Below, in pieces: positions 30,958 through 38,835 of a stretch of DNA of 64,000 nt. The stretch's first letter is position 1, and the number at the start of each line of letters is the position of its first letter. A model generated the notes under the pieces. It did not search any database, was not told where the DNA came from, and was given only the letters and a program-made list of their open reading frames with translations. Made by a program: the position numbers and the translations under genes. The DNA is from Actinobacteria bacterium IMCC26103 (GTDB taxonomy: Bacteria; Actinomycetota; Actinomycetes; Nanopelagicales; Nanopelagicaceae), in assembly GCA_002284875.1 (NCBI GenBank), contig CP015604.1, positions 496,001 to 560,000 on the forward strand, in the 5' to 3' direction.

Positions 30958-30978
30958 CCTTCGCTATATGGAGTGCGC

Positions 30979-31581
30979 ATGAGCCAACAAGATCAAGTTG
31001 AGTTCACCCTCTGGTTGCGTGAGAACCAGAAGGCTTTTCTGCGTGCGGCCAAAGTTATTTGCTTTGATACACAAAATGCTGAAGATGTACTACAGGAAGC
31101 CCTAGCCGACGTCTATAAACGTTGGAGCAAGATACGAGTACATGAAAACCCGGAAGCTTACTTAATGCGCGTGATGGTCAGTAAGCATGCCGATATGCGC
31201 CGTAAATGGTTACGTCGCCAGCAAGAGAAGGAAACTTCCTGGGACTTGGCTGAAAATATTCGCGACCTAGTCGATCAGACTGATGATGTAACGCAGCGCC
31301 TATTAGTTCAGGCTGCTCTTAAATCTTTGAGTGCCGCACAGCGTGCAGTGTTAGTTCTAATCTACGAACACGGAATGGTTCTGCGCGAGGTAGCCGATGT
31401 TTTGCAGATTCCAATGGGTACTGCAGCATCACATTTAGCGCGCGGTAAAGCGGCAGTTGCGGCATATGTTGAGTTAGTTCCAGAACTTGAAAAGTCGGCA
31501 AATAAAGAACTAACTGGTTCAAATAACGTAAAGATCGAAATCGAAACGGTGATCGCGGAAGTGGTGGATAACAATGAGTGA
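30979..31581 (+). CDS. ECF-type RNA polymerase sigma factor (SigE family-like)
   Basis: Small alternative sigma factor, 200 residues. Region 2 contains DTQNAEDVLQEALADVYKRWSKI and PEAYLMRVMVSKHADMRRK; region 4 has LKSLSAAQRAVLVLIYEHGMVLREVADVL with the helix-turn-helix PMGTAASHLARGKAA. GGAG (30970-30973) precedes ATG 30979; a GTG at 30973 overlaps that site and is less likely. A 40-residue C-terminal tail follows region 4. It lies 21 bases after the MFS gene and overlaps the next gene by eight bases, so the TTT transporter, MFS carrier, sigma factor and membrane protein may share one mRNA. Targets cannot be deduced. Confidence 0.9.
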   Translation: MSQQDQVEFTLWLRENQKAFLRAAKVICFDTQNAEDVLQEALADVYKRWSKIRVHENPEAYLMRVMVSKHADMRRKWLRRQQEKETSWDLAENIRDLVDQTDDVTQRLLVQAALKSLSAAQRAVLVLIYEHGMVLREVADVLQIPMGTAASHLARGKAAVAAYVELVPELEKSANKELTGSNNVKIEIETVIAEVVDNNE

Positions 31582-32221
31582 TGTAGATCCGCTTATTAAA
31601 CGCGAGATGCAATGGATGGCCCTCGGCGTCCTAGAAAATCGTGATTTGGCACCAATCATTATTGCTAAGGTGCGACGCCGGAAAATACGTCGCGCATTTT
31701 TCTCAGTCGTCGCTGTCTTAGCAATCAGTGGACTAAGTATCGGGATATTTGAATTCTTTAATAAGCCTGCGACAGTTGTCGTTAATCCAGATTCTGGCGT
31801 AACTGGCAATAACACAGGATCACAACCAGAAATAATCGGCCTGCAATCTGATTACCCAGTTACCTGGGAACAGAGCGTTGGTGATCTTGGTGCAATTAGC
31901 GGTGCTGGAGGAATTGGTGACACTCTTGGTGGCTTAACTGCAGTCGGCTTGAAGATTTCTTGGGAACGTTGCGGCCAAGGACAATGTCCAATTACTTGGG
32001 TATTGAGTTTGGAAAATAAGACTCAGGATTTGATTTCGACTGCGCCATCGCTTGGGATATTTACCGGCCACACACCGATCGTCAGTGATTCAAGGCCAAC
32101 AACAGTCTTGCCAGGCGGCACAGCGCTCTTGGTCTATAGCTTCCCGGAGTTCAAGGATTCCCTGAACACATCGCCGCGCGAAACTTGGCAGTGGAACTGG
32201 TATCTGGCTCAACTCCGTTAG
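31574..32221 (+). CDS. Single-pass membrane protein, candidate anti-sigma factor
   Basis: Unrecognised 215-residue protein. Residues 1-38 are cytoplasmic and charged (DPLIKREMQWMALGVLENRDLAPIIIAKVRRRK), one hydrophobic segment spans about 40-62, and the rest is external with a Ser/Thr/Gly linker and a beta-rich domain holding one Cys pair (ERCGQGQCPITW). The gene overlaps the sigma factor gene by eight bases, the arrangement normal for sigma/anti-sigma pairs. No zinc-binding HxxxCxxC motif is present, so an anti-sigma role is inference from position and topology only. Confidence 0.65.
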   Translation: MSDVDPLIKREMQWMALGVLENRDLAPIIIAKVRRRKIRRAFFSVVAVLAISGLSIGIFEFFNKPATVVVNPDSGVTGNNTGSQPEIIGLQSDYPVTWEQSVGDLGAISGAGGIGDTLGGLTAVGLKISWERCGQGQCPITWVLSLENKTQDLISTAPSLGIFTGHTPIVSDSRPTTVLPGGTALLVYSFPEFKDSLNTSPRETWQWNWYLAQLR

Positions 32222-32255
32222 GAGTCTGAGCGGTACAAATGGCTCAACTCCGTTA
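32205..32255 (+). repeat. 16-bp direct repeat spanning the stop of the membrane protein gene
   Basis: TGGCTCAACTCCGTTA occurs at 32205-32220 and again, exact, at 32240-32255. The first copy covers the last codons and the first bases of the TAG stop at 32219-32221; the second lies in the untranslated region 35 bases downstream. Confidence 0.95.
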
Positions 32256-32297
32256 AAAAACCTCCAGTTTCCCTAGTCTCGAGGTACCCCTAGCGCA

Positions 32298-32349
32298 TAA
32301 ATTAGCCCCTGTAGCGCGGTAACCAAGAAGAAGCCATACCTGTGGCTTC
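32298..32349 (+). promoter_or_regulatory. Promoter region and leader hairpin of the 32371 gene
   Basis: TAAATT at 32298-32303 fits the TAnnnT -10 class, but I see no good -35. Downstream, GAAGCCA (32330-32336) pairs with TGGCTTC (32343-32349) around a six-base loop, ending 12 bases before GGGGGA of the ribosome site. The promoter call is weak; the hairpin is clear. Confidence 0.35.
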
Positions 32350-32370: not shown

Positions 32371-34260
32371 GTGAAAAAGAAACTAATCGCCGGGGCTTCG
32401 TCCCTAGCTCTTTTAGCGGGGCTGATCACAGTTGCTAATCCAGCAAGTGCAGCAACCATCCGCTTGCCTAAATCTGCAATGAACGCCTGCGTTGTTCAAA
32501 ATGGCATTTATTGCATTGAATCAGTAACACTTACAACAGGCTCAGGACAGAAAATTCCTTTGACCTACGTACCTAGCGGAACTGAAGTTCCAGCTAAGAA
32601 GACACCTTCAGATTTCTTTGCGCCAGTTGCGCAGATCAAGGGTGGCAAAGTCGTAGATAACAACTGGTGGATATCGCAGTACCAGCGTGATGTTCTTACA
32701 TCCGGCAAGTTTGTTATGCAAGATCTATCTTCACTTCTCGGGACAGCTAATCACCCAGAACAGGGTGCGAAGTACGATGCAGCGAAGAAGGTTTACGACA
32801 TCAACAAGCCACTTGATTCATACAGCTACCCAATGGATTGCTGGAACCCAACTACAAAGGCAACAACCAAGACTACTTTTAGTGAATGCTTTAAGGGCTC
32901 TGTAGCTTTCTTGCAGGATAACGAAGTCAAGTTCTTCTTCTTCTATCCAACAGCTGCAGAAGCAGCTAAGCAGATCGCTAACTTTACCGGCGTAACATTT
33001 ATTGACCTTGCTGAACTTTCAGCGACTCAACAGCGCCCAGTATCGGGAACAACTTATGATGCTGCTACAAAGACCTTTAAGGCAACCGAAGGAATCATCA
33101 TTCCTATCTGGGTTACCCAAAATGCTTTGGTTAATGGTTGGGCGGTAGCGGGTACACCTGCTGCAGTTCCAGCAGATCCAGCAGCGGCGGCAACAACAGT
33201 TGCACCAACTACTGAGAGCGCAACAGCAGAAGCAACAGAACTTGCTGCAACCGCACCACTTGCACCAGCTCCCGGCGTTGCAGTCGGAACACCAGCAGAA
33301 GCTGGCCGCGCTCTCGTTGGTCGTTGGACACACCCTGATTGGCAAGGACTAAATCTTGGTTCACTTGGTTATGACGGACTTTATGTTGAAGCAAAGACTC
33401 CTAACGAGTTCGTTTCCAGCATGCTCTTCGTTGATGTTCTTCCAACACTTACAGGTGCTGATAAGAAGACAAATCTCGCAGGTCAGGTCGGTAACAAGGC
33501 ATATGCAGTAAGCCTTGATTCAGATATCGTCATTACAGTCAAGGTTCGCGTAGGCGAAATGCAGACTGGTGTGACCGTTGCTGTAGGTACCGACATAGTC
33601 GTAACACCACAACCTGGTGGCGAGTACAACGCAATTTCAATCACTGGAACACCAGTAACAGTTCCATTAGCTAAATCAGTTAAGGATTGCGAGGGCGAAG
33701 CCGGCATTTCTAAGGCTAATGTTCGTCAATTCCAGATGATCGCAATGGCATCTAACGATGACACTTCAGGATTCGGTGTCGACGGTACTTCTGGTGGAAT
33801 GTATGTGGGCTCCAACGGTGTCTGCGGACTTTCAACTCCAGTATGGAGTGAAACCGACAAGGCATTCACATGGCGTGCTGCCGCTCCTCACTTTGCACCA
33901 GATGGTGTAACAGTGAACAAGGGCTTCTACAAAGCGGTAATTCCAGTAGCAGATGCTGCACTTCTTTGGGGTATGACTAATCCAAATGATGCTGCTTCAG
34001 CTCTTGAAATTTCGCTTACAACTGAAGCAGGCGGAACCGCAGCCTTCCTCAAGAACATCAGCGTGAAGAACGGCAAGATCATCATCGATGTATCTGGCTT
34101 TGAATACTCACGTCCAAAGCTCAAGATTGGTATTAAGAAGGGCTACAAGCCTGCTGCCAAGATCTTGAACAAGACAACAATCACATGCGTTAAGGGTAAG
34201 ACTGTAAAGAAGATCACTGCAGTTCAGCCAGCATGTCCAGCAGGTTATACAAAGAAGTAG
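32371..34260 (+). CDS. Secreted protein, paralogue 1 of 3, with Cys/Lys C-terminal tail
   Basis: Unrecognised exported protein of 629 residues. GTG start with GGGGGA upstream. Signal peptide 1-28 (LIAGASSLALLAGLITV, cut near ASA-A). An N-terminal domain has the paired cysteines ACVVQNGIYCIE. An Ala/Pro/Thr-rich linker (about 268-312) leads to a second beta-rich domain with AAPHFAPDG, and the last 26 residues form the tail TCVKGKTVKKI ... CPAGYTKK. Domains and tail are shared with the next two genes. It may be a surface or released protein; function is unknown. No membrane anchor or sorting LPxTG motif is present. Confidence 0.85.
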   Translation: MKKKLIAGASSLALLAGLITVANPASAATIRLPKSAMNACVVQNGIYCIESVTLTTGSGQKIPLTYVPSGTEVPAKKTPSDFFAPVAQIKGGKVVDNNWWISQYQRDVLTSGKFVMQDLSSLLGTANHPEQGAKYDAAKKVYDINKPLDSYSYPMDCWNPTTKATTKTTFSECFKGSVAFLQDNEVKFFFFYPTAAEAAKQIANFTGVTFIDLAELSATQQRPVSGTTYDAATKTFKATEGIIIPIWVTQNALVNGWAVAGTPAAVPADPAAAATTVAPTTESATAEATELAATAPLAPAPGVAVGTPAEAGRALVGRWTHPDWQGLNLGSLGYDGLYVEAKTPNEFVSSMLFVDVLPTLTGADKKTNLAGQVGNKAYAVSLDSDIVITVKVRVGEMQTGVTVAVGTDIVVTPQPGGEYNAISITGTPVTVPLAKSVKDCEGEAGISKANVRQFQMIAMASNDDTSGFGVDGTSGGMYVGSNGVCGLSTPVWSETDKAFTWRAAAPHFAPDGVTVNKGFYKAVIPVADAALLWGMTNPNDAASALEISLTTEAGGTAAFLKNISVKNGKIIIDVSGFEYSRPKLKIGIKKGYKPAAKILNKTTITCVKGKTVKKITAVQPACPAGYTKK

Positions 34261-34303
34261 TTTCTTAACTGCTTCCTTATAGACGATAGAGGGCAAAGCC
34301 GTT

Positions 34304-34335
34304 CCTCGGCTCGCTAAGAAATTAGTGAGCCGGGG
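34304..34335 (+). other. Hairpin between paralogues 1 and 2
   Basis: A 13-bp stem with two G-T pairs (34304-34316 with 34323-34335) and a six-base loop, 43 bases after the paralogue 1 stop. No T run follows. It may reduce read-through, so that paralogues 2 and 3 are made at a different level. Confidence 0.5.
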
Positions 34336-34384
34336 GCGGTCTCCTCAATTCATCAGGACTAAATATTTTAAGACTGGGGATACC

Positions 34385-36097
34385 TTGAAGCACATAAGCA
34401 AGTTTTCAATACTTCTAATTGCAGTGGCTCTTGTATCTCCATCACTTGCGCATAGTGCCGATTCGTTCGATGAACAACATTTAGCTTCCCCAGCTCCTGC
34501 GAAGAATTATCAGGGCTATTTACTTCAGGACTCTGCAGAAATCACCCGTTTCAACTCTGGACTGATTAGTTTTAAATTAAATGCAGCGCAAAGTATTGAA
34601 TCAATTACAGCATGCTCATCGCTCTCTCAAATCGGTTGCGAATTTACGGCCAAGCAGTTTTATAGAGCAATACTTCAAAAATGTGACTCAGTAAATACAG
34701 TTGATTGCATAACAAATGTCTCTGCAAAGACCGATGATGGAAAAGAACTCGATGTTCAACCCGCGGGAATTTTCGCCGATAAAGGAAAGTTCGACTTCCA
34801 GGGCGATCCATCACAAAATTTACCTGCTGGTGGGGGAGCAATTCTTGTAAAGATTCCCGGTGCACCTCACGCTGGCGGAGATCTATATTTAATTAAATCC
34901 GAGATGGTCGGTGTTCGTGAGACTAGAAATTCACCAACTGCCAAATTCTTAATGCAGCGTATGCAAACCGGAATATTTGCAGTAGCCATTGAAAAAGGCA
35001 GCTTCGGATATATGGGAATGTCTACCGATCCAAAGCAATACCCATCTTTGGATTGGCTTATTGGAACAATGTTCGGCCAAGCTCCCGCTACGGGCACATG
35101 CATCATGTCTACCGAGACAGAGTGCGCTAAAGGTTACCCACTTCCACAGAACATAGCATTTGGCTTGCAATTTAGAATGAACAACCAACTCAATGGTTGG
35201 CTGCACGGGCGCATGAAAGCACCAGCCATTACTTTAGTAAAAGAATCTGCCGGTACACAGTTACTTACCGTTCAGGCAAATGCCATTAAGGTCCCACTTA
35301 TTGATGTTTGGGTAAATAACGATGCAATGCCAGCAGGGCTAAAGAATTATTATGCAAATGTTCCTAATTATGGAAGCACAGCAATTGGCACCAAAGACCA
35401 ACCACTTTCAGAGATTGCTCTTCGACGTGACGGAAATGGATCTAACGATGCCAACACGATGAAAGAATTTGTTAATTGGCTTCCTGTAATTGGCGATAAA
35501 GCTCAGGGAATGCCTACTGCTTGGATGCTAAAGACCATGATCTCTTTTGGAGATACCAGTTCTGAGAATCCTTGTTTTGCGAAGAGCAATGGATTTGCCG
35601 GTGTTGTATCAACGAATGCCGCCCAGTACATAGATGGGCCGCCTACTTTTAATAAATCTGAGGGGCTGCTTGATTACAAGGTTGCCGCTCCTCACTTAAC
35701 TTCAACTGGCGAAGTATTTAAAGGAACGTATGACCTCGTTATGAGTTCAGTTGTAGCACGTTGCTTGTACGGATTCTCGAAAGCTCCAATAGGAGCAACA
35801 ATCTCGATCGTTTCCGAATCTGGAGAGCCTAATGTGGCAACAACTTTGGTCCGTGAAAAAGATGGCTTCTTAAACTTAGCGGCTTATAACTTCACTTTCT
35901 CTTCACCAACCGTCCGAGTGAAGCTGACTCAAGAAGCCCCAGCCCCCGCACCTTCTGCATCAGCCACACCAACTTCTTCACCTTCGATGGCACCAGTCTC
36001 CGTAAAGAAGAGCTCGATTACTTGCGTTAAAGGCAAGACTTCAAAGAAGGTTACAGCTGTAAACCCTAAGTGCCCAACCGGATATAAGAAGAAGTAG
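34385..36097 (+). CDS. Secreted protein, paralogue 2 of 3, with Cys/Lys C-terminal tail
   Basis: Unrecognised exported protein, 570 residues from TTG 34385, chosen because GGGGA lies just upstream and the product then starts with a clean signal peptide (KHISKFSILLIAVALVSPSLAHSA). A longer frame begins at 34325. Visible features: APHAGGDLYLIKSE, NGWLHGRMKAPAI, the block VSTNAAQYIDGPPTFNK, then DYKVAAPHLTSTGE and KGTYDLVMSSVVARCLYGFS, a Pro/Ala/Ser linker, and the tail ITCVKGKTSKKV ... CPTGYKKK. Matching blocks in paralogue 3 appear in the same order. Function unknown. Confidence 0.83.
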   Translation: MKHISKFSILLIAVALVSPSLAHSADSFDEQHLASPAPAKNYQGYLLQDSAEITRFNSGLISFKLNAAQSIESITACSSLSQIGCEFTAKQFYRAILQKCDSVNTVDCITNVSAKTDDGKELDVQPAGIFADKGKFDFQGDPSQNLPAGGGAILVKIPGAPHAGGDLYLIKSEMVGVRETRNSPTAKFLMQRMQTGIFAVAIEKGSFGYMGMSTDPKQYPSLDWLIGTMFGQAPATGTCIMSTETECAKGYPLPQNIAFGLQFRMNNQLNGWLHGRMKAPAITLVKESAGTQLLTVQANAIKVPLIDVWVNNDAMPAGLKNYYANVPNYGSTAIGTKDQPLSEIALRRDGNGSNDANTMKEFVNWLPVIGDKAQGMPTAWMLKTMISFGDTSSENPCFAKSNGFAGVVSTNAAQYIDGPPTFNKSEGLLDYKVAAPHLTSTGEVFKGTYDLVMSSVVARCLYGFSKAPIGATISIVSESGEPNVATTLVREKDGFLNLAAYNFTFSSPTVRVKLTQEAPAPAPSASATPTSSPSMAPVSVKKSSITCVKGKTSKKVTAVNPKCPTGYKKK

Positions 36098-36101
36098 GAA
36101 T

Positions 36102-37856
36102 GTGAAAAAGATACTTGCAGGGTTAATCGCATTTGCCTTTATTTTTGGAAGCTCTTCTTCCGTTTTGGCTGCCAGTGAAACTGTAGGTGACTCGGGGCGC
36201 ATTTGGGCCGTTCCTGATGATGCGGATCGTGGAATGCATGTTCAGCGATTTTTAGATGCATCTCCAGACATACCTAGTTCTTATTTGATTGATTACAACG
36301 CTTGGCAAAGTGACGCATATAAAGATCCAACATGCCAAAGTGCCACTGATTCAAACTGTAAATCAGAGTCACTTGGTTACAACGCGTTGCTACCTGTTTG
36401 CGGAGCTCTAAGCACGGTTTATTGCATTGAAGATTTTGGGGTTATTAACTCTGCGGGCGAATCTACAAAAGCGTCATTTTCTCGATATTTTCCTACTGAG
36501 GCGTTAAACAAATTCACCTCGGCCGAAAATCTAAAATTACCTTTCGGCGCTACGGGTAGCATTTTTGATCTACCAAGCGCACCACATGAAGGTGGCACTT
36601 TGTATTACGTATCGGCGCTTACCAAAGGTGAATTGCGAAAGAGCTCAGGCGCAGATCTTCAGTCACTCAATATCGATATTTATCCCGTAAAACTAGAATC
36701 AGGTGATAACGCAATTCAAGATGTTGATCCTGGTATGTCGAAGGAGACTAATGGCGGTTCAGGACACCCCGTTGGTCAATGGCGCTTTGCAAGTTTCGGA
36801 TTTTCGGGAAAGAGTTTCTGCGTGGCTGGAAGTGTGAAAGAAAAACTTTGTGCGCAGCGTTATGCATTTCCGGCTGATAAGAAGTTCTATATAAAGCTAA
36901 AACTTCAGAATAAGCCAAAGGGATGGTTGCACGGCAGAATTTACAAGCCAGACGTTTCCTTTACTGAAATTACTGGTGGATATTCCTTCTATATTGCAGC
37001 CAATCCGGTTGCTGTTCCTGTTGTATACAAAATGTACCGATACCCAGAAATGCCTCAGGCGCTTAAGGACCAATACGATGTTAAAACCGGAGGATATAAA
37101 CCCGAAGTTGCCCTTCGAACACCTAATCCAAATGGGGCGCCCGAAGGTTGTGGTCGATCTGTGTGTACAGAAGATCCAATGACACGAAATGTGATCATCG
37201 CGCCAAGTGCTTCAAGCAAGTTTGGTATGGATCAGTTGAAGTTTTGGCTGCCATTTGTCGAAGATAAAGCAACAACTCTTTTGGGAACTTGGTCTCTTCG
37301 CACATTGGAAGAGAATGAAACCCAAAATGCATCTGAGTGCTTCAAGAATGGTGATAAAGGTGTGACTGGCATTGTTACTACAAATGCAACCCAATATTCT
37401 GCCGGTCCTCCAACGCTTAATAAAGGTGAGGGAACACTTGAGTATCAAGTAGCAGCACCTCACTTCACCACAAAAGGTGATGAGTTCTTAGGAACATATG
37501 ACCTGATTATGCGATCCGATGTTGCTCGATGCGTGTATGGGTTCTCAGCTGCACCAGTAAGAGCATCGCTTTCTGTAGTAAGTGACAAGGGTGATCAGAA
37601 AGTTGCCACTGAAATTCTTGGCGAAAAGAATGGGTGGCTTTACCTTTCAGCTGGTGGATTTACTTATTCATCTCCAACTATCAAGGTAAAACTTGAGCAG
37701 GATGCTCCAGCTCCAGTTGCAACTCCAACACCTACCCCGAGCGCCTCTTCTAAACCAGTAGTAAAGACTGCCACAATTACGTGCGTCAAAGGCAAGGTAA
37801 TCAAAAAGGTAACTGCGGTAAATCCAAAGTGCCCAACTGGCTATAAGAAGAAGTAG
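36102..37856 (+). CDS. Secreted protein, paralogue 3 of 3, with Cys/Lys C-terminal tail
   Basis: Unrecognised exported protein, 584 residues. GTG start only four bases after the paralogue 2 stop, with AGGA inside the stop region. Signal peptide 1-24 (ILAGLIAFAFIFGSSSSVLA). Shared blocks with paralogue 2: CGALSTVYCIEDFG, APHEGGTLYYVSA, KGWLHGRIYKPDV, VTTNATQYSAGPPTLNK, YQVAAPHFTTKGDEF, GTYDLIMRSDVARCVYGFS, a Pro/Thr/Ser linker and the tail ITCVKGKVIKKV ... CPTGYKKK. It has extra cysteines in the middle (GCGRSVC). Co-transcribed with paralogue 2 and the DUF4436-like gene. Confidence 0.85.
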   Translation: MKKILAGLIAFAFIFGSSSSVLAASETVGDSGRIWAVPDDADRGMHVQRFLDASPDIPSSYLIDYNAWQSDAYKDPTCQSATDSNCKSESLGYNALLPVCGALSTVYCIEDFGVINSAGESTKASFSRYFPTEALNKFTSAENLKLPFGATGSIFDLPSAPHEGGTLYYVSALTKGELRKSSGADLQSLNIDIYPVKLESGDNAIQDVDPGMSKETNGGSGHPVGQWRFASFGFSGKSFCVAGSVKEKLCAQRYAFPADKKFYIKLKLQNKPKGWLHGRIYKPDVSFTEITGGYSFYIAANPVAVPVVYKMYRYPEMPQALKDQYDVKTGGYKPEVALRTPNPNGAPEGCGRSVCTEDPMTRNVIIAPSASSKFGMDQLKFWLPFVEDKATTLLGTWSLRTLEENETQNASECFKNGDKGVTGIVTTNATQYSAGPPTLNKGEGTLEYQVAAPHFTTKGDEFLGTYDLIMRSDVARCVYGFSAAPVRASLSVVSDKGDQKVATEILGEKNGWLYLSAGGFTYSSPTIKVKLEQDAPAPVATPTPTPSASSKPVVKTATITCVKGKVIKKVTAVNPKCPTGYKKK

Positions 37857-37863
37857 AGGAATT

Positions 37864-38835
37864 GTGAAAGTTTTACGCACTAGGTTCTTTCAAACCTTCA
37901 TGGTGATCGCCGTTGCATATCTGGGCATAGTTGTGATGATCTCTCAAGACCCTGCCGATGATGCGACAGCAATTGATGACAAGTTGATTTCGATGAGTTC
38001 TGATAACCGCCTTGAGTTATTGGTGCAGATTACTGGCGTGAATCCACTTGAGGGAACTGCAAATGCGCGAGTCTTGCCTTGGCCAAATAGCGATGACGTT
38101 GGTTTCCGCTTGAAGAGTGGTTGGGTTCCAGGCCAAGATGTTGACTTAATCGTTGACTCTGTAATTGGTGCAAGTAACGGCGGAAGCAATACCTACAGCT
38201 TTAAAAGGGATATTCCGACTGGTGGCTTTGATGTTCAGATCGATGAGCAACCAGGTGCAGGTCCGCGTTCTGATGTCGGTTGGTATCCGATGGATAAGTA
38301 TTCATTTGAGATCCCAATTAGTGCGATCGGAACTTTGGAAAATGGTGATCAAGCAACGCTAAATATCTTGCCTTTGGATTACACAAAGAAGATCGATACC
38401 TTTGATATTCATATGATCCACGGCCTCTGGAACGATGCCTTCACAACGGTAACAATGGATGATCCAAAGTCCTTCGATGCAGCAGTCGATGAATTCAATA
38501 ATGGCCAGTCATCCTCAGTGTTTGAAGCAGTTCGTTCCAATTCAACGAAGTTACTTGTAACAATTATTTTGTTGTTGATGATCACTGCAATGGTTTCAGT
38601 GACGATCATGACTTACATGGTGGTAACCGGAAGTCGCCCACCAACTCTGTCATCACTTACATGGGCTGCAGCGCTGACTTATTCATTGATCTCACTCCGT
38701 GGCCTAATGCCTGGTGGTCCACCGATCGGCATCTTCGTCGACAAGATCTTCTACTTCCCGGCTCTGATCGTGACCCTGGTCTGTTCTCTCTGGGTCTTGG
38801 TTACTTGGGTTCGCCGCGAGGATTTCCAGAGCTAA
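37864..38835 (+). CDS. DUF4436-like membrane protein
   Basis: Integral membrane protein of 323 residues. GTG start with AGAGGA seven bases after the paralogue 3 stop. One N-terminal hydrophobic segment (about 9-27), a large external beta-rich domain (30-215, with YPMDKYSFEIPI), then three membrane segments (about 230-255, 265-280, 295-315) with the connecting LRGLMPGGPPIGIFVDK. This topology and the PGxPPIG motif fit actinobacterial DUF4436 proteins as I remember them; no biochemical role is known. Position suggests it works with the secreted paralogues, perhaps as partner or anchor. Confidence 0.75.
   Translation: MKVLRTRFFQTFMVIAVAYLGIVVMISQDPADDATAIDDKLISMSSDNRLELLVQITGVNPLEGTANARVLPWPNSDDVGFRLKSGWVPGQDVDLIVDSVIGASNGGSNTYSFKRDIPTGGFDVQIDEQPGAGPRSDVGWYPMDKYSFEIPISAIGTLENGDQATLNILPLDYTKKIDTFDIHMIHGLWNDAFTTVTMDDPKSFDAAVDEFNNGQSSSVFEAVRSNSTKLLVTIILLLMITAMVSVTIMTYMVVTGSRPPTLSSLTWAAALTYSLISLRGLMPGGPPIGIFVDKIFYFPALIVTLVCSLWVLVTWVRREDFQS

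Follow-up and report, generated by a model that had tools for sequence, protein, structure and literature searches.

A sigma factor-linked, many-or-none family of secreted proteins in the Nanopelagicaceae: a candidate inducible cell-surface system

The window analysed here is a 64,000-nucleotide stretch of the genome of Actinobacteria bacterium IMCC26103 (CP015604.1, positions 496,001 to 560,000), a relative of "Ca. Planktophila" in the Nanopelagicaceae whose genome is a single contig of 1.456 Mb. The window holds a gene cluster, all on the forward strand, that encodes an extracytoplasmic function (ECF) sigma factor (30973..31581), an anti-sigma-like membrane protein whose gene overlaps that of the sigma factor (31574..32221), three secreted proteins designated P1 (32371..34260), P2 (34385..36097), and P3 (36102..37856), and a DUF4436 membrane protein (37864..38835). 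The same order, in which the sigma factor and the anti-sigma-like protein are followed by P1, the P2/P3-type genes, and DUF4436, is found in relatives. A previous annotation of this DNA, hereafter the sequence-only reading, had described P1 to P3 as a tandem family; it missed the ECF/anti-sigma pair, the promoter-like motif, the inter-gene hairpin, and the empty sites in related genomes that are reported below, and the functional unit starts upstream of the interval it had delimited, at the sigma factor gene (30973).

All three secreted proteins contain a cysteine pair of the form C-x7-C (P1, ACVVQNGIYCIESV; P2, KCDSVNTVDCITNV; P3, VCGALSTVYCIEDF) and a common 28-residue, lysine-rich tail with two cysteines, ITCVKGKxxKKxTAVxPxCPxGYxKK (34174..34257, 36011..36094, and 37770..37853). 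The motif AAPHF is present in P1 and P3 and AAPHL in P2; GWLHGR, TNAxQYxxGPPTxNK, and GTYDLxM are common to P2 and P3. P1 consists of the N-terminal Cys motif, an insertion of about 200 residues, an Ala/Pro/Thr linker placed mid-protein, a C-terminal core domain, and the tail, and P2 and P3 are each built from a two-part beta-rich body, a linker, and the tail. The start of P2 is very likely the TTG at 34385 and not the GTG at 34325, since the latter falls within a strong hairpin and the orthologues begin at the equivalent of 34385. Every motif quoted in the sequence-only reading was present in the translations, and the similarity it had proposed among the three proteins extends beyond chance: homology is evident between P2 and P3 (phmmer E about 1e-91) and more remote between P1 and P3 (E about 1e-14, tail included), and tail-less profiles of the P1 and P2/P3 types still aligned across some 200 columns at the C-terminal end (hhalign probability 98.2%, E 5e-14). 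By these profiles, the likeness of the P1 core to the other cores is a homology of the C-terminal domain only. The AlphaFold model of P3 was beta-rich and confident (predicted local distance difference test, pLDDT, 79.5; predicted template modelling score 0.79), with the tail modelled as a two-stranded hairpin (block pLDDT about 85); the model of P1 was poor (pLDDT 44.9), and P1 and P3 were therefore compared by profile instead of by structure.

The impression that these proteins belong to no recognised family was borne out for the proteins tested. P1, P2, and P3 had no Pfam or NCBIfam match above cut-off and no match in PHROGs or among PDB sequences, a profile comparison with the PDB likewise giving nothing usable; the Pfam matches of P3 were all sub-threshold (PP2, 15.1 bits against a cut-off of 25; Salyut, 11.7 bits against 27). 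Foldseek searches with the P3 model gave no meaningful fold match in the PDB (best E 2e-4, template modelling score, TM, 0.13) or among the viral models of BFVD (best E 1.2e-3, TM 0.15), and the top-ranked matches (Ams1/Nbr1, GH98, coronavirus spikes, Vip3A, and phage tail proteins), at TM of about 0.05-0.15, were rejected as noise of the kind produced by long beta proteins. We found no paper on the family, on the tail, or on DUF4436 function in these bacteria in the open-licence literature, which is weak evidence of novelty.

Searches with P3 and with the tail recovered 13 family members at eight loci in the source genome, so the tandem trio had been an undercount, and the family occupies about 1.5% of the genome. 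The 13 products share a Sec-type signal peptide (judged by eye, as was the absence of lipobox and LPXTG motifs discussed below), an N-terminal disulfide-type motif, a beta-rich body, usually a Pro/Ala/Thr linker, and the terminal basic 28-residue two-Cys module; at invariant positions, Cys, Gly, Pro, and aromatic residues predominate, with no evident catalytic set. One member (L054, 9238-10944; genomes, genera, and loci of the survey are cited by our labels G, g, and L) has no ATG, GTG, or TTG ahead of its encoded signal peptide and has apparently lost its start codon or uses one of the rarer kinds. In the family tree, P1, P2, P3, and the other paralogues each cluster with members from other genera, indicating that the duplications predate the genera and that copies have been lost or transferred since; a recent local triplication, as the sequence-only reading's expansion by duplication would imply, was ruled out by this tree.

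The family was surveyed in 121 Nanopelagicaceae genomes and 395 other genomes of the phylum, many of them incomplete metagenome-assembled genomes (MAGs); the presence/absence counts are phylogenetically non-independent. Full-length members (best E < 1e-100) were found in 31 of the 121 Nanopelagicaceae genomes, usually in at least eight copies, as in the near-complete positive genomes, and in none of the 395 others, in agreement with the earlier description of the system as lineage-specific. The distribution was bimodal, with no genome having a best E between 1e-100 and 1e-18; of the 22 genomes with weaker matches, 19 were re-searched with a tail profile, and their matches proved to be to the tail alone. 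Five positive genomes of the same genus gave 13-23 matches at E <= 1e-10 in a rescan of 13 handles, some of these being split genes. On an RpoB tree of 29 genomes, the pattern of presence and absence requires at least seven changes, and sister genomes can differ completely (G097, 13 matches; G067, none). The negative genome G007 encodes a 138-residue remnant (L117, L153; L153 422-838) in which the family's N-terminal motif is joined to the tail, a probable decayed copy that points to loss.

The presence and absence of the core cluster can also be followed at the locus itself. In five negative genomes (G061, G040, G051, G067, and G103), the major facilitator superfamily (MFS) gene that lies upstream of the cluster is directly followed by rpsM, meaning that the core block is missing as a unit. 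This site is likewise empty in G097, where the sigma, anti-sigma, and P1-type genes stand together elsewhere. Linkage of these three genes was observed in genera g1, g4, g8, and g9: in g4 (G054), the cluster lies near rpsM, and in g8 and g9 the same order is found at other sites, with DUF4436 ahead of the sigma gene. In G097, P1 shares 72% identity with its counterpart from a g8 genome but 55% with that from the genus to which G097 belongs, whereas for RpoB the corresponding identities are 87% (a g8 genome) and 95% (own genus), a contrast indicating transfer of the core cluster from one genus to another. The gene that closes the cluster encodes a DUF4436 member (PF14494, E 5.6e-19; 68.9 bits against a cut-off of 23.2) that had been thought to be part of the system, and a co-occurrence survey upheld this, with the gene present in 12 of 31 family-positive and 1 of 90 negative genomes (Fisher p = 1e-7) and physically linked to the cluster in several genera. 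In some relatives, DUF4436 is followed by an extra family member with a variant tail, WCAKGxxKRKVTAxKPVCPKGFKK (L042, 8599-10335; L043, 10869-12389), which is absent from the corresponding position in the window.

The sigma factor at the head of the cluster carries region 2 and region 4 domains (PF04542, PF08281, and PF04545, all above cut-off) and is of SigE type, its best NCBIfam match being TIGR02983 (SigE-fam_strep; 103.7 bits, under the cut-off of 141.6). Its orthologues, which are 67-97% identical, head the same cluster in other genera. The overlapping gene encodes a protein, recovered as a conserved alignment, with an N-terminus of about 40 residues, one hydrophobic segment, and a conserved extracytoplasmic domain (SDYPVTWEQSVGDLGAIS..., two Cys, TWQWNW); it had no Pfam match, and no RskA or zf-HC2 domain was detected among 10 members. 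Its position and topology, the latter assessed by inspection, suggest an anti-sigma function. Of 31 genomes with the family, 16 encode this protein, as against none of 25 without it.

Alignment of the regions upstream of P1 yielded an ECF-type promoter-like element, GCATAA-N16-CGGT, which in the window lies 76 bp upstream of P1 (GCATAAATTAGCCCCTGTAGCGCGGT; 32295..32320) and is kept ahead of P1-type genes in several genera and ahead of dispersed family genes. The pattern GCATAA-N15..17-CGG[TC] occurred 25 times in 764 kb of loci, with 19 of the 25 occurrences lying 8-111 bp before a family gene. Counted by gene, it stood within 150 bp upstream in 18 of the 92 family genes but in none of 328 others; the p-value of 3e-13 is optimistic, orthologues being counted. 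None of 10 family genes sampled from two genomes that have the family and lack the anti-sigma-like gene (G005 and G009) carried the element. In the source genome, the exact pattern GCATAA-N16..17-CGGT had seven matches, of which three precede family genes (59807, 528295, and 673491), and of the other four, one is sited some 80 bp ahead of a gene for a lipoprotein-hydrolase, yet inside another gene. The adjacent sigma factor may well be the protein that reads the element. The promoter-like motif is also found in antisense orientation inside the anti-sigma gene, at much the same place in three genomes of genus g8 (L140 9483, L142 6574, and L150 8571), where it is possibly an antisense promoter or a coding constraint.

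Two stem-loops punctuate the cluster. One, at the end of the anti-sigma gene (32200..32236, forward strand), divides the sigma/anti-sigma transcript from P1, and the region 32200-32262 has a minimum free energy of -21.1 kcal/mol (z -4.5). The hairpin-bearing unit at this gene end is repeated before P1, partly in the window (32200-32262) and more so in L043 (4055-4160). The other is a strong stem-loop with no U-run between P1 and P2 (34289..34346, forward strand), where the folding energy of the region is -44 kcal/mol (z -3.4). At seven other loci, P1 is followed by an equivalent hairpin (z -2.9 to -7.3), which makes eight loci in all, from several genera and mostly with no U-run; in a comparison of five close sequences, 8 of the 19 base pairs showed changes on both sides. 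The post-P1 hairpin is a putative attenuator or mRNA 3' stabiliser, and a stable, conserved structure at this place suggests that P1 is produced in surplus.

The tail had been taken as a shared mark of the family, a role it does not keep, for it also ends unrelated exported proteins, including proteases, substrate-binding proteins, and glycosidase-like proteins, in genomes that lack the family. In this the module resembles the C-terminal element of LPXTG/sortase-anchored proteins, which is likewise found on many unrelated exported proteins. All 13 C-termini, however, were by inspection devoid of LPXTG and a hydrophobic C-terminal segment, and the module here occurs in four copies in one family member (L054, 10998-13298) and N-terminally in other proteins, by which a cleaved sorting signal was ruled out. 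That the module can be placed at either end of a protein and repeated four times in tandem fits a binding domain better than a sorting signal, and the simplest reading is that it would retain proteins on the envelope. The N-terminal cases come from relatives, in small proteins of beta-rich appearance whose signal peptide runs directly into the module (L103, L105, and L119). Two small exported proteins from another family of the phylum end in the tail (L088 and L089; G486 and G510), so that the module is wider than the Nanopelagicaceae. In the source genome, a sugar-type ATP-binding cassette substrate-binding protein with no lipobox carries a divergent tail (L056, 5445-6875; C1 about 1243447), which might there replace a lipid anchor.

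The reading that we favour, and to which we give about even credence, is that an inducible system of cell-surface proteins is controlled from this locus, which would also be its core operon. Under this reading, the ECF sigma factor, held by the adjoining anti-sigma-like membrane protein, would drive P1 through GCATAA-N16-CGGT and would also drive some of the scattered family genes that bear the element, steps that the data support well, if short of proof. The 28-residue module would then hold the 13 products on the cell envelope, the hairpin after P1 would lift P1 mRNA above that of P2 and P3, making P1 the major subunit, and the proteins would together build a coat, or a layer of fibres, on the cell surface, with the membrane protein DUF4436 in an accessory role; the coat function is our best guess. 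The set would be lost or transferred as a unit, as is seen for the core cluster and as we infer for the whole set. Several points weigh against this proposal. S-layers normally use one or two proteins, and a coat of 13 divergent proteins would be unusual. Genera g6, g10, and g13 have the family without the anti-sigma-like protein, so sigma control is not universal, and DUF4436 is present in just 12 of the 31 positive genomes. In the source genome, a reversed control pattern gave eight matches against the seven exact ones, four of those seven (226416, 358287, 641219, and 1175166) resemble background, and the element was found at just 4 of about 6 family genes that are first in their transcript.

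The system can also be read in terms of feeding. The beta-rich bodies could be binding modules or uncharacterised hydrolases for dissolved polymers, retained by the tail and induced by the ECF sigma factor when substrate is sensed, and the many divergent paralogues could reflect many substrates; the occurrence of the tail on substrate-binding proteins, proteases, and glycosidase-like proteins of relatives indicates that the module is used for feeding proteins. Such nutrient scavenging is nonetheless unlikely in our judgement, if deserving of real weight, given that no enzyme or carbohydrate-binding family or fold was matched, that in the loci compared across genomes the cluster is not consistently followed by a transporter gene, and that the invariant residues make up no evident catalytic set. 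A smaller share of our confidence goes to defence against phages or grazers, or escape from recognition, by surface proteins that mask or vary receptors, with alternating selection for having or lacking them. The repeated presence/absence switches among close relatives and the transfer of the core cluster between genera fit frequency-dependent predation, and surface genes are a reported hotspot of variation in lake bacterioplankton (PMC9426551). The orthologues, however, are well conserved and not hypervariable (P1 is 91, 81, and 73% identical to three orthologues, the first figure, like the 82% of P3, being to the named relative P. lacus), and defence may be a consequence of a coat and not a separate explanation.

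The signal peptides without lipobox or LPXTG, together with a basic tail that could bind any anionic surface, would also suit released toxins, bacteriocin-like proteins, or matrix proteins whose tail binds other cells or particles. We find this improbable, with no immunity gene or toxin-like domain nearby and with the tail also on substrate-binding proteins, which must remain at the cell. Least probable, and already disfavoured, is that the genes are unlinked paralogues with no common function whose all-or-none pattern stems from the level of genome reduction or from sampling. This would draw on the many incomplete MAGs in the survey and on the readiness of a streamlined clade to shed dispensable genes, but single-contig complete genomes of similar size occur among both positives and negatives, the promoter element is common to scattered loci, and the core block is absent as a unit.

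If the surface-system reading is right, its closest counterparts would be the S-layer and S-layer-associated proteins of Gram-positive bacteria (SLH, CWB2, and WxL), with which it shares many secreted paralogues, one small wall-binding-type module, and one probably major product. It differs in having no Pfam match to SLH, CWB2, WxL, or any other wall-binding domain already described, a module of 28 residues with one Cys pair, a body fold without a match, and an all-or-none set of 13 divergent proteins. The regulatory part is similarly reminiscent of surface regulons governed by an ECF sigma factor and a membrane anti-sigma factor, in its overlapping sigma and membrane-protein genes, single membrane segment, and bipartite promoter-like element ahead of adjacent and distant envelope genes, but the anti-sigma-like protein has no Pfam match, the target family is new, and the regulator is absent in some genera. 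The -35-like GCATAA and -10-like CGGT also differ from the common ECF promoter type, GGAAC/CGT. For DUF4436 (PF14494), the cluster ties a member to a specific secreted-protein system. The new findings that carry most weight are that genomes have the family in many copies or not at all, that an ECF pair is linked to it and a promoter-like element is shared among its genes, that related genomes have empty sites, and that the tail is portable.

The acI Actinobacteria are a dominant freshwater group and among the most abundant bacteria of lakes, and their cell surface is poorly known. Their genomes are streamlined, with few paralogues and sigma factors (60 and 3, respectively, in strain IMCC25003; PMC7771536). 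Against this background, about 1.5% of a streamlined genome is spent on one uncatalogued secreted family of which close relatives have none. A tentative proposition, which we would call possible and not yet probable, is that the Nanopelagicaceae (acI) have two envelope states, one with a multi-protein coat of a new family, a dedicated ECF sigma switch, and a portable 28-residue anchor replacing lipid or sortase anchoring, and one without, and that lineages switch between the two time and again as the whole set is lost or transferred. The promoter element of the family points to a dedicated sigma factor and offers a testable regulon, the tail can serve as a tag by which probable surface proteins of the group are recognised from sequence, and the sister genomes with and without the set form a natural pair for examining what the acI surface may do in encounters with phages and grazers and in substrate capture.

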